From Chitinophagaceae bacterium (GTDB taxonomy: Bacteria; Bacteroidota; Bacteroidia; Chitinophagales; Chitinophagaceae): a DNA stretch of 64,000 nt. Numbering within the stretch: the first letter of the stretch is position 1; every line of letters begins with the position of its first letter. Where the stretch lies: positions 248,001-312,000 of the forward strand of contig CANLAE010000001.1 in the NCBI GenBank assembly GCA_947488765.1. The letters run 5' to 3'. Shown here piece after piece: positions 9,859 through 12,484 of this stretch. Below the pieces are notes generated by a model. It worked only from the letters and a program-made list of their open reading frames with translations, made no database searches and was not told the DNA's origin. Made by a program: the position numbers and the translations under genes.

Positions 9859-10749
9859 TTATAAAACTTCTCCTGCTAATAATACTTGCCAAGCGTCTTG
9901 CACTTTATGTTGCAACAACAACTCTTTGGCAAAAGTATGCAACTCCATTTCCATCTCAGTTGGATTAATTGAAAAATACTGCACAATATTTTTCAAACGT
10001 TGGTCTTCAAATGTATTGTCAACAATTGGTAAGGAATGCACGTTAGCCAATTGTGCCAAATTGTTACCCGTTAAAACTAAACTGTTTTTAATGCTTAATG
10101 GTAAAGCATCAATTCCAATACCAATTTTAGTATTCGGTTTTTCTACTTCAAACAAATTGGAAGCATCTACTTTGCAATACCAATCACCGCCTAATCTTGC
10201 GATTGTATTAAGTTTTGCTTGATCAATCATTGTCTGCGCTTCATTTAAAATACTTTCATCTACATGCATGCATAAAACTTCTGCAATCACCAATTGCCCT
10301 GCACCATTGCCTTCACCCAGGCTTTTTATTTCTATTACAGTGCATTCTAATTTTATTTTGGCTTCTTTTACCATTGGTGGCTTTATCATGTTCGCAGCTT
10401 CTTTTGTAAAGCCTGATTTGATAAACTCGTCAACCCCTTTTTCAAATTCACAACTGCTGAGGCTCATTTGTTGCACCATATCATAATCACAAATATTAAT
10501 TACCACTTCGGGTACTTCCATTACGTTTTGCAATGTATGTTTTGTGCTGCCGTCTCTTGCACGGCGTGAAGGTGAAAAAATAACAACAGGTGGATTGGTA
10601 GAAAACAAATTGAAGAATGAAAACGGGCTTAGGTTTACATTTCCATTACCGTCAATTGTTGATGCAAAGCAAATTGGTCTTGGCGCAATAGCATGTTGCA
10701 GCCAAACTTGCTTTTGTTGAATTGGAAGTTGATTTAGATGAATTAGCAT
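9859..10749 (-). CDS. Flavin reductase family protein (DIM6/NTAB-like)
   Basis: A 296-residue protein with an N-terminal FMN-binding split-barrel domain of the flavin reductase family (about residues 10-200). The segments PRPICFASTIDGNGNVNLSP, FSFFNLFSTNPPVVIFSP and KHTLQNVMEVPEVVINI are typical of this subgroup. The C-terminal third (from about residue 205) has no known domain I recognise. Members use NAD(P)H to reduce FMN or act as FMN-bound oxidoreductases of unknown substrate. It is followed closely by the di-iron hydroxylase gene. Its upstream side is occupied by repeat copies, so no promoter was identified. Confidence 0.85.
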   Translation of the reverse strand: MLIHLNQLPIQQKQVWLQHAIAPRPICFASTIDGNGNVNLSPFSFFNLFSTNPPVVIFSPSRRARDGSTKHTLQNVMEVPEVVINICDYDMVQQMSLSSCEFEKGVDEFIKSGFTKEAANMIKPPMVKEAKIKLECTVIEIKSLGEGNGAGQLVIAEVLCMHVDESILNEAQTMIDQAKLNTIARLGGDWYCKVDASNLFEVEKPNTKIGIGIDALPLSIKNSLVLTGNNLAQLANVHSLPIVDNTFEDQRLKNIVQYFSINPTEMEMELHTFAKELLLQHKVQDAWQVLLAGEVL

Positions 10750-10753
10750 AATT

Positions 10754-10815
10754 TTTTACCGCTGAGTCGCAGAGATCGGGGAGGTTTCGCAGAGTTTGAA
10801 ACATTTTACCTTTCT
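10754..10815 (+). repeat. Left repeat copy 1 of the GxxExxY bracket
   Basis: About 60 bases beginning TTTTACCGCTGAGTCGCAGA, with a core GATCGGGGAGGTTTCGCAGA and ending in ACCTTTCTC. It is nearly identical to the copy 118 bases to the right, and inversely related to the two copies on the other side of the GxxExxY gene. Confidence 0.85.
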
Positions 10816-10871
10816 CTGAAATTCATATTTTAAGCATTCTGTTTTTATAATTATTTTTTACGTTCTTTTGT

Positions 10872-10934
10872 TTTTACCGCTGAGTCGCAGAGATCGGGGA
10901 GGTTTCGCAGAGTTTGAAACCGTTTACCTTTCTC
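10872..10934 (+). repeat. Left repeat copy 2 of the GxxExxY bracket
   Basis: Second direct copy of the same ~60-base repeat, differing from the first by only a few bases. It overlaps the 3' end of the GxxExxY gene and supplies its last codons and stop. Confidence 0.85.
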
Positions 10935-11299
10935 CTAAAACCGTCTTTTAAAAGTGGTACATTAAAGTTGATTAAATACCCAAGTTTTTTATCAGCAATT
11001 TTTAAATAAGTAATTAATTGTGCTTCATGAATGGGATGCAATTCATCAACAGATTTTAATTCTAAAACAATTTCATTTTCAACCAAAATATCAATCACAT
11101 ACACCTTACCTAAATTTACGCCTTTGTAGTTCATTTCAATTGCACATTGCCCTAATGCAAAAATATTTCTCAACTCGAATTCCCTTAACAACGCTAACGA
11201 ATACGCCGACTCCAACAAACCAGGACCCAACTCCCGATGAACGGTAATACATGAGTCTAAAATAATTGCCCCGAGTTTATTTAAATTATCTCTATCCAT
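10874..11299 (-). CDS. GxxExxY protein (PD-(D/E)XK nuclease-like)
   Basis: A 141-residue protein of the GxxExxY family. The naming motif is GPGLLESAY near residue 26. A nuclease-like core follows with YVIDILVENEIVLELKS, matching the Asp...Glu-x-Lys active-site pattern of PD-(D/E)XK enzymes. The biochemical role of the family is not established to my knowledge. The usual end of the family is near RRKVNG; the last residues here (CETSPISATQR) are encoded by the adjoining repeat copy, so the native C-terminus may have been replaced. The gene is bracketed by two direct repeats on one side and two inverted copies on the other, and starts 16 bases before one of them. Confidence 0.85.
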   Translation of the reverse strand: MDRDNLNKLGAIILDSCITVHRELGPGLLESAYSLALLREFELRNIFALGQCAIEMNYKGVNLGKVYVIDILVENEIVLELKSVDELHPIHEAQLITYLKIADKKLGYLINFNVPLLKDGFRRKVNGFKLCETSPISATQR

Positions 11300-11314
11300 A
11301 TCTTTTTTAAATAA

Positions 11315-11357
11315 AAATTCTCTGCGTTAACTCCCCGTTCTCTCCGTCTCTTCGGCA
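11315..11357 (-). repeat. Right repeat copy 1 (inverted) of the GxxExxY bracket
   Basis: Contains CTCTGCGTTAACTCCCCGTT followed by CTCTCCGTCTCTTCGG. Read on the minus strand it resembles the left copies, with mismatches that are mostly A/T or G/C exchanges. Confidence 0.8.
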
Positions 11358-11407
11358 ACCCTCTTCTGTTAATTTCCTCACTATAACCAATCTTGAATAT
11401 AAATATT

Positions 11408-11453
11408 AAAATTCTCTGCGTTAACTCCCCGTTCTCTCCGTCTCTGCGGTGAA
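11408..11453 (-). repeat. Right repeat copy 2 (inverted) of the GxxExxY bracket
   Basis: Direct repeat of the previous copy about 94 bases further on, sharing the AAATTCTCTGCGTTAACTCC start and ending CTCTGCGGTGAAC. It lies just past the end of the FAH-family gene. Confidence 0.8.
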
Positions 11454-11479: not shown

Positions 11480-12484
11480 TTACTTCTTCCTCCCCAAAAT
11501 ACTAAACTCACTTTCTTCTTTTACAATGGTGTTTACCAATTTCCCCAAACAGGCAATTTCCATTTCTATTACATCACCTTCCTGTAACCATTGTTCCTGA
11601 TAATCCGGATTGTTCAATTTGCCTGTGCCATTCAGTTCTAAAAAACAACCCGTGCCTACAGTTCCACTGCCGATTACATCACCGGGATGTAAGTTTACGC
11701 CATAACTGGCACGTTCAATAATTTCAGCAAAAGTCCAATCCATGTCGCCCACATTTCCTTCGCTTACCTGAATACCATTTACCCAACATTTCATTGATAA
11801 ATTCCAAGCTTTCCCCTCATGATTTTCTTTGGGAGCAATTTCAAAATCAACAAGCTCATCCAATGTAACGAGGCAAGGACCAATTACTGTGCTGAAATCC
11901 TTTCCCTTAGCTGGTCCCAGGTTCAATAGCATTTCTTCCATTTGTAATTTTCGTGCACTCATATCGTTCATAATCATCAATCCGCCAATGTATGTATCGG
12001 CTTCAGAGGCAGGTATATTTCTGCCTTGTTTACAAATGACAATTGCTGCTTCCAATTCAAAATCTAATTTTTCAAAATGATCGGGCATACACAATATATC
12101 TCCTGGACCCTGAATACTATGATGGTTGGTAAAATAAAAAATCGGGTACTGGTCAAACTCCGGAATCATCTCTACTTTTCTGTTGCGCCTTGCTGCTGCA
12201 ACGTGTTGTCTGAATGCGTATCCGTCTCTGCAACTTGTAGGAAAAGGTATTGGAGCCAATAGTTGAATGATATTAATATCAATGCCTTTGTCTTTGGTAA
12301 TAATCCCTTTAATGATAGCATTGTTAACGCTTTTAGCGGTTTCAAACATATCATCCCAATAGTTCAAAAACATATTCATGTTTCCGGGTAAGTCAGGATG
12401 CAACGCATCGCAATCATATAAAAAATCATCTACTAAAAAGGCAAGTTGGTCGTGTCCATCACGTAAGTATGATACAAGCTTCAT
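11480..12484 (-). CDS. Fumarylacetoacetate hydrolase family protein
   Basis: A 334-residue member of the FAH fold, whose members hydrolyse C-C bonds or decarboxylate/isomerise keto acids during aromatic breakdown. Metal-binding and active-site segments visible are FYFTNHHSIQGPGD, HFEKLDFELEAAIVI (acidic metal ligands), GGLMIMNDMSARKLQ (Asp ligand), AKGKDFSTVIGPCLV and GDVIGSGTVGTGCFLEL. The length suits the mid-size FAH proteins of Bacteroidota, which often sit in tyrosine or homogentisate catabolism, but no pathway partner is present here, so the substrate is open. A TACTTTCG box 17 bases upstream is a plausible promoter. Confidence 0.87.
   Translation of the reverse strand: MKLVSYLRDGHDQLAFLVDDFLYDCDALHPDLPGNMNMFLNYWDDMFETAKSVNNAIIKGIITKDKGIDINIIQLLAPIPFPTSCRDGYAFRQHVAAARRNRKVEMIPEFDQYPIFYFTNHHSIQGPGDILCMPDHFEKLDFELEAAIVICKQGRNIPASEADTYIGGLMIMNDMSARKLQMEEMLLNLGPAKGKDFSTVIGPCLVTLDELVDFEIAPKENHEGKAWNLSMKCWVNGIQVSEGNVGDMDWTFAEIIERASYGVNLHPGDVIGSGTVGTGCFLELNGTGKLNNPDYQEQWLQEGDVIEMEIACLGKLVNTIVKEESEFSILGRKK

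Follow-up and report, generated by a model that had tools for sequence, protein, structure and literature searches.

Insertion sequences with their MITEs comprise an autonomous unit, in which a gene lies between inverted ends, together with gene-free relatives. A comparable arrangement is found in the REP/REPIN systems, where, as far as the accessible text of the published accounts goes, the gene of the RAYT protein (TnpA-REP) stands between inverted copies of a repeat that also occurs dispersed, REPINs are gene-free inverted pairs able to form hairpins, and the repeat co-varies with the protein (PMC3116915, PMC8266576). Inverted repeats also accompany the S23 gene in the intervening sequences (IVS) of 23S rRNA, for example in Coxiella, where, according to the available part of the source, tandem GACAGAT heptamers precede the ORF (PMC4990558). 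Tandem heptamers of a further kind, TAACTGA, are described in the consulted portion of another study as intergenic repeats shared by distant lineages, namely Beggiatoaceae, cyanobacteria and Bacteroidetes (PMC4679880).

The DNA analysed here is a stretch of 64,000 nucleotides from a Chitinophagaceae bacterium (the window), in which a small gene of the GxxExxY family stands between inverted repeat arrays. This repeat–gene–repeat stretch probably represents one copy of a miniature mobile element that resembles REPIN/RAYT systems and has a PD-(D/E)XK nuclease at its core. A search of the open literature, a scope outside which most subscription papers and preprints fall, yielded no account of GxxExxY genes with repeats, and the papers containing the word GxxExxY concern, in their accessible text, other matters; the gene and its repeats are provisionally regarded as a kind of miniature mobile element not described before.

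The window locus and its protein

The features of the locus are as follows.

9859..10749, minus strand: flavin reductase-like gene, bordering the seam on the right (PF01613, E 3.8e-14)
10758..10794, plus strand: outer downstream repeat array, also ACCGCTGAGTCGCAGAGATCGGGGAGGTTTCGCAGAG (from repeat comparison)
10795..10833, minus strand: partial duplicate of the 3′ end of the GxxExxY gene, joined to the outer downstream array (part of the 81-nt direct repeat)
10874..11299, minus strand: GxxExxY protein gene, 141 amino acids, PD-(D/E)XK nuclease family (TIGR04256 and PF13366 profile matches)
10876..10912, plus strand: inner downstream repeat array, ACCGCTGAGTCGCAGAGATCGGGGAGGTTTCGCAGAG, covering the last codons of the GxxExxY gene
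11320..11355, minus strand: inner upstream repeat array, gene-strand CCGAAGAGACGGAGAGAACGGGGAGTTAACGCAGAG (from repeat comparison)
11414..11450, minus strand: outer upstream repeat array, gene-strand ACCGCAGAGACGGAGAGAACGGGGAGTTAACGCAGAG (arm of the top-scoring inverted pair)
11480..12484, minus strand: FAA-hydrolase family gene, bordering the seam on the left (PF01557, E 6.5e-53)

Downstream of the minus-strand gene lie two direct copies of a repeat (10753–10833 and 10871–10951; 81 nt, 90% identical) and upstream of it two further direct copies (11311–11355 and 11405–11449; 45 nt, 96% identical), the upstream pair being inverted relative to the downstream pair. The resulting bracket has an inverted-repeat score of 26.0, whereas the highest score among 30 shuffles was 16.4, which confirms the first-pass annotation in its description of two copies on each side in inverted orientation. 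The same annotation had characterized the differences between the arms as A/T or G/C exchanges, and this holds for six of the seven differences in the 37-nt cores of the window arms (five A/T, one G/C and one T/G) but not as a general rule: over 120 brackets, such exchanges account for 242 of 777 arm mismatches (31%), compared with 33% expected from composition.

Two features are absent from the first-pass annotation: the inner repeat on the downstream side includes the last codons of the gene, and the outer copy on that side also duplicates the final ~30 nt of the gene that precede the repeat. The local match between this 3′-end duplicate and the gene extends over 29 nt and was equalled in none of 500 shuffles; the duplicate (10795..10833) is probably what remains of a gene copy that was older or arose by duplication. 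The upstream interval of the locus gave no significant match to the 5′ end of the gene (eight of 500 shuffles were equal). In G004, the outer repeats adjoin partial 5′ and partial 3′ gene copies (each equalled in 0 of 500 shuffles), and the remnants of both loci suggest that an older element had another nested within it or duplicated over it.

Searches of the window gene against Pfam and NCBIfam returned PF13366 (E 4.2e-37, 127.5 bits, cut-off 22) and TIGR04256 (E 1.4e-37, 128.6 bits, cut-off 35) as sole matches. The GxxExxY motif reads GLLESAY (residues 27–33), and E30, D70, E80, K82 and Q94 are invariant in an alignment of 26 relatives; D70, E80 and K82 are, following the PD-(D/E)XK motif, presumably the catalytic residues. 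An AlphaFold2 model (pLDDT 90.4) was compared with solved structures using VIA-align, and its best neighbours are nucleases of the PD-(D/E)XK fold, such as SSO0001 (4ic1; Z 9.3, 3.4 Å over 99 residues), with the archaeal Hjc resolvase further down the ranking (Z 6.8). Foldseek returned nothing for the model at E ≤ 0.001, and a sequence search for a solved relative gave none at a usable E-value. As modelled, the window protein is of the PD-(D/E)XK fold with the D..ExK residues present, and is predicted to have nuclease activity.

Inverted arrays around GxxExxY genes

The genome from which the window derives contains four PF13366 genes, every one within inverted arrays, the sequences of which are all different. 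With the bracket score defined as the best inverted repeat between 300-nt flanks, and with controls of the same geometry shifted along the loci, these genes score 21.0, 18.2, 26.0 and a weaker 14.4; the last value, that of L004, exceeds the 95% control level but not the 99% level, and in one scoring run the best inverted pair of this locus was an unrelated A+T-rich match. A GxxExxY gene is present in 41 of 59 genomes (own and relatives), in up to 12 copies per genome. Of the 92 gene copies from relatives, among which one gene is counted twice (L028, L155), 63 have a bracket above the 99% control level and 29 do not; one of the 640 shifted control windows scored 178.6, corresponding to another long inverted repeat. 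The level is likewise exceeded by 56 of 80 copies from many phyla of bacteria and archaea and not by the other 24, in a set that is not a random sample, being limited to the best 80 among 575 places confirmed after a search with one peptide pattern; when this wider set was scored in a separate earlier run, 57 of 77 copies were bracketed (1252 controls). Six of 179 gene copies were dropped from the count for their short flanks, and L119 belongs to neither group. The expectation that other GxxExxY genes would carry the same bracket is thus borne out in that most carry one, but its sequence is usually different. Viral carriage of the family was considered and set aside: among the viral contigs that two peptide patterns matched, a scan returned a single GxxExxY relative (L119), which is likewise bracketed (score 26.0).

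Each arm is an array of about three to four units of ~7 nt with a spacing of 8–11 nt, and the left and right arms of a bracket match each other. The unit types are CRCNRAG (CACAGAG, CGCAAAG, CACGAAG), CACAGAT, CACATAG and TCTGAATTAGGATT. Across 201 pairs of CRCNRAG units compared between the arms, the fourth base differs in 37% and the fifth in 9%, a comparison that is free at these two positions only, positions 1, 2, 3, 6 and 7 being constrained by the search pattern; the fourth base is, in general, free in CRCNRAG units. The array motif is far denser within 400 nt of a gene (4.98 per kb) than beyond 1 kb (0.24 per kb; 121 matches), and its units point at the gene from either side (109 to 40 upstream, 124 to 33 downstream). 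The reversed-pattern control is also raised near genes (34 matches within 400 nt or in the gene versus 13 beyond 1 kb) because tandem arrays are partly read as the reversed motif, and the density claim is therefore carried by the comparison of near with far.

The sequence of the repeats follows that of the protein. Over 118 bracketed genes, protein identity correlates with repeat similarity (Mantel r 0.50, 0 of 2000 permutations), a correlation that extends to pairs below 50% identity (r 0.41), and repeats of different genes that share a genome resemble each other no more closely (0.237, 64 pairs) than do repeats from different genomes (0.272). Repeat type therefore tracks the nuclease and not the host. 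Shared inheritance of gene and flank could alone explain part of this co-variation, but unconstrained flanks should presumably be saturated when the proteins are this far apart. We infer that the protein acts on the repeats, a possibility already raised in the first-pass annotation.

Co-variation of repeat and protein would also be expected if the arrays were binding sites with a non-mobile role, such as autoregulation, the ending or processing of transcripts, or the upkeep of the genome; the nuclease would then serve as a binding or housekeeping partner, and the two arms would be alike since a single protein must bind both. A free central base, reminiscent of a binding motif, and the position of the elements just past stop codons at gene borders are in keeping with this explanation, which is nevertheless improbable in view of the invariant PD-(D/E)XK residues, of the exchange and reversal of elements at one seam and of the homology running from repeat to repeat, both described below; moreover, pseudogenes, remnants and dispersed gene-free families suggest a mobile unit.

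Occupied seams, empty seams and dispersed arrays

The FAA-hydrolase orthologue that borders the window seam is present in all ten genomes of the genus. A GxxExxY element fills the seam in G000 and G004, and in two congeners, G002 and G009, the seam is empty, with nothing but 3 nt, such that the start codon of the flavin reductase-like gene lies 3 nt beyond the stop codon of the FAA hydrolase (L183 and L184). Another gene follows the FAA gene in G001, G003, G006, G007 and G008, which were counted as neither filled nor empty. In the nearest congener, G005 (96% FAA identity), the seam is occupied by a gene of another family.

G005:C1:153830-154138: four-helix-bundle gene (L181), PF05635

A clean empty site was also sought in G005 for L004, the gene of which is missing there; an unrelated stretch of 95–110 nt stands in its place, and there is therefore no clean scar.

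A second seam, next to a gene of the cyanobacterium Dolichospermum circinale (L092), was followed through 30 loci of relatives. Elements of three types occur at it, A in five loci, B in six and C, in reverse orientation, in three, with flanks that are 95–97% identical and proteins that are just 69–76% identical. Five loci hold 1, 6, 12, 19 or 48 nt only, and these empty loci are more distant, with a flank identity of about 74–87%; in ten the downstream gene is not adjacent, and L265 and L266 keep gene remnants. One relative has at this seam a 49-nt hairpin without a gene (L264, one of the 30 loci) and another a 19-nt stretch resembling the fused outer ends of a reversed element (L268), both of which are possible scars of loss. 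Empty loci lacking gene and repeats alike, named in the first-pass annotation as support for mobility, thus exist at the window and D. circinale seams. No target-site duplication was noticed by eye at either.

Three close non-syntenic pairs of loci (L134/L142, L028/L128 and L020/L135) delimit the homologous unit, which runs from repeat to repeat: in L134/L142, two sites of G004, and likewise in L028/L128, homology stops at most 3 nt from either repeat edge, and it ends at the repeat edges in L020/L135. The edge test draws on these few close pairs, since in most of the 214 pairs the alignment ends within the gene. Together with the empty seams and the tracking of the protein by the repeat type, repeat-to-repeat homology in the three pairs supports the earlier suggestion of a mobile unit. 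Near-identical gene copies within a genome were not found, the distinct GxxExxY genes compared sharing at most 85% protein identity; there is therefore no sign of recent gene bursts, and a classical insertion sequence with copy bursts is unsupported.

The same seams bear on homing or drive at fixed sites, whereby the nuclease would cut an allele lacking its element or holding another, the element would be copied in via homologous recombination through the flanking genes, and the arrays would protect or mark the resident site. Different elements do reuse one seam in close relatives with the flanks intact, the window seam included, recent duplicate genes are lacking in each genome and no target duplication was noticed by eye, all of which such a process would accommodate; it is nonetheless unlikely, as it leaves unexplained both the near-identical gene-free arrays at unrelated sites and the repeat-to-repeat homology of L134 and L142, two sites in one genome.

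In its own genome, the window repeat type is detected by a strict pattern at the window locus only (five overlapping matches, control 0). In many relatives, matches to a two-unit pattern greatly outnumber those to its reversed control (95 versus 1 in G009, 112 versus 1 in G046), and a three-unit pattern gives 26–30 or 16–20 matches per genome, with a control of 0, in four genomes. Matches amount to 1157 (control 113) in the 41 genomes with both GxxExxY and four-helix-bundle genes, to 115 (control 20) in the eight with four-helix-bundle genes only and to 25 (control 22) in the ten with neither. Repeats found everywhere and unlinked to GxxExxY genes had been proposed as evidence against a mobile unit; the dispersal is real in many genomes, but the lack of a link is not. 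The same figures weigh on the notion that common short purine-rich repeats give rise to the bracket as a low-complexity intergenic artefact. The units are indeed simple (CRCRRAG) and arrays also occur away from genes, as in the matches beyond 1 kb, yet the brackets beat shifted windows of the same loci, the reversed pattern has no match where the three-unit pattern has 16–30, and genomes without GxxExxY and four-helix-bundle genes remain at the control level. These controls refute chance or composition as the origin of the bracket, and an explanation along such lines has a very slight probability.

Among 229 Gammaproteobacteria sampled, 35 have a TIGR04256 gene, and at least three three-unit arrays are found in 25 of these 35 versus 19 of the 194 without the gene (Fisher p 6e-14, kinship ignored); exceptions are the nine of 194 that have at least ten arrays and no gene and the seven of 35 that have the gene and no arrays. 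G024 contains 66 unit-pair matches and no PF13366 gene. Other genomes rich in arrays and without a GxxExxY match include G199, G207, G242, G244 and G249; array-rich genomes of this kind may have lost the gene, rely on another enzyme or possess a divergent relative that was missed.

Many dispersed arrays are paired. In G055, an inverted partner adjoins seven of eight sampled arrays, forming hairpin elements of ~95 nt with unrelated flanks; in G009, G053 and G024, an adjacent inverted partner is clear in only five of 19. A 24-nt array from both sides of L323, a gene of the gammaproteobacterium G201, recurs exactly in seven of 12 sampled dispersed loci of that genome, and a second array, of CGCAGAT type, in seven of 12, mostly inside the first. 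When compared with 121 arm sets, the first family ranks its own gene L323 top (31.0, next 22.0) and the second its own gene L327 (19.5, next 13.0); a third gene examined, L326, matches neither dispersed family. The candidate cognate gene in G055, L019, ranks just sixth and fourth of 121. In the two genomes examined, the cognate link between family and gene is therefore clear in G201 and weak in G055.

Some dispersed elements are nested, with a CGCAGAT-type pair within the loop of a CACGAAG-type pair (L313–L325 in G201; L329, L331 and L332 in G325). The dispersed CACAAAG arrays of G009 (L285, L289, L297, L301, L305, L309) have an extra conserved stretch outside the arrays, around TTTGTAAACAAATG, and this family is therefore longer than the array pair.

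Proposed mechanism and comparison with known systems

For the GxxExxY elements we infer binding, cutting, movement, the choice of target and the form of DNA recognised as follows. The sole gene of the element would encode a small PD-(D/E)XK nuclease of the GxxExxY family, and at each end of the element would stand an array, inverted relative to the other, of a heptamer-like unit that in the commonest types reads CRC-N-RAG. The nuclease would recognise the arrays of its own element, probably as an oligomer and perhaps in the form of a hairpin or cruciform made by both arrays, and would nick or cut at them, with the whole unit being copied or moved as a result. Gene-free array pairs of the same repeats may be mobilised likewise, the targets being, presumably, gene borders and the loops of other such elements.

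If this is correct, a role could be assigned to the GxxExxY family, which has had none so far, and the origin of a class of dispersed repeats found in many genomes would be explained. To our knowledge, the PD-(D/E)XK nuclease fold is not known for a REPIN-like role, and the elements would represent a REPIN-like system driven by a nuclease fold, with a built-in protein–repeat code, and might yield compact proteins that bind or cut DNA at specific sequences.

Four-helix-bundle genes (PF05635, S23/IVP-like), present in 49 of the 59 genomes in up to 19 copies, are also bracketed: 21 of 30 loci (L202–L231) score above 15.6, the level applied to the GxxExxY genes, and the 120 controls at most 14.6, and their arrays have a 7-nt period and a sequence private to each gene. 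The published IVS heptamers upstream of the S23 ORF, as given in the available part of the source, fit the bracketed PF05635 genes. A broader proposal can be advanced only tentatively, with less than even confidence: GxxExxY would be the mobilising nuclease of undescribed, phylum-spanning miniature elements with private heptamer-array ends, the gene-free progeny of which would constitute much of the CRCRRAG-type repeats dispersed in these genomes, and the S23/IVP genes, with 7-nt arrays of their own, would form a parallel branch, with the 23S rRNA IVS as special cases.

Of the systems described to date, the TAACTGA heptamers resemble the GxxExxY arrays, on the accessible text of their description, in being intergenic tandem heptamers common to distant lineages; they differ in being mostly direct repeats of a single fixed heptamer with a proposed regulatory role, and neither a nuclease gene nor an inverted bracket is described in that text (PMC4679880). 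As in insertion sequences with MITEs, the GxxExxY element consists of a gene between inverted ends together with gene-free relatives, but it has no known transposase and no near-identical copies within a genome.

The 23S rRNA IVS shares with it, as far as the source consulted describes, a small gene inside an imperfect inverted repeat, termed selfish, and a four-helix-bundle gene indeed fills the window seam in G005. The proteins are, however, unrelated, and the IVS lies in rRNA and is excised from RNA by RNase III, whereas the GxxExxY elements studied here are intergenic; the window gene is a PF13366 gene between two metabolic genes.

The REPIN/RAYT system depends on an HUH (Y1) enzyme, which the window gene does not encode, GxxExxY being a PD-(D/E)XK nuclease, and its REP is one short palindrome, in contrast to the arms of the GxxExxY elements, which are tandem arrays of ~7-nt units. 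Enzyme and repeat both differ, and the GxxExxY element is therefore not classed as a member of the REPIN/RAYT system, with which it has in common, on the published text available, inverted flanking repeats, gene-free pairs, found dispersed and of the flanking type in G201, and the co-variation of repeat and protein.
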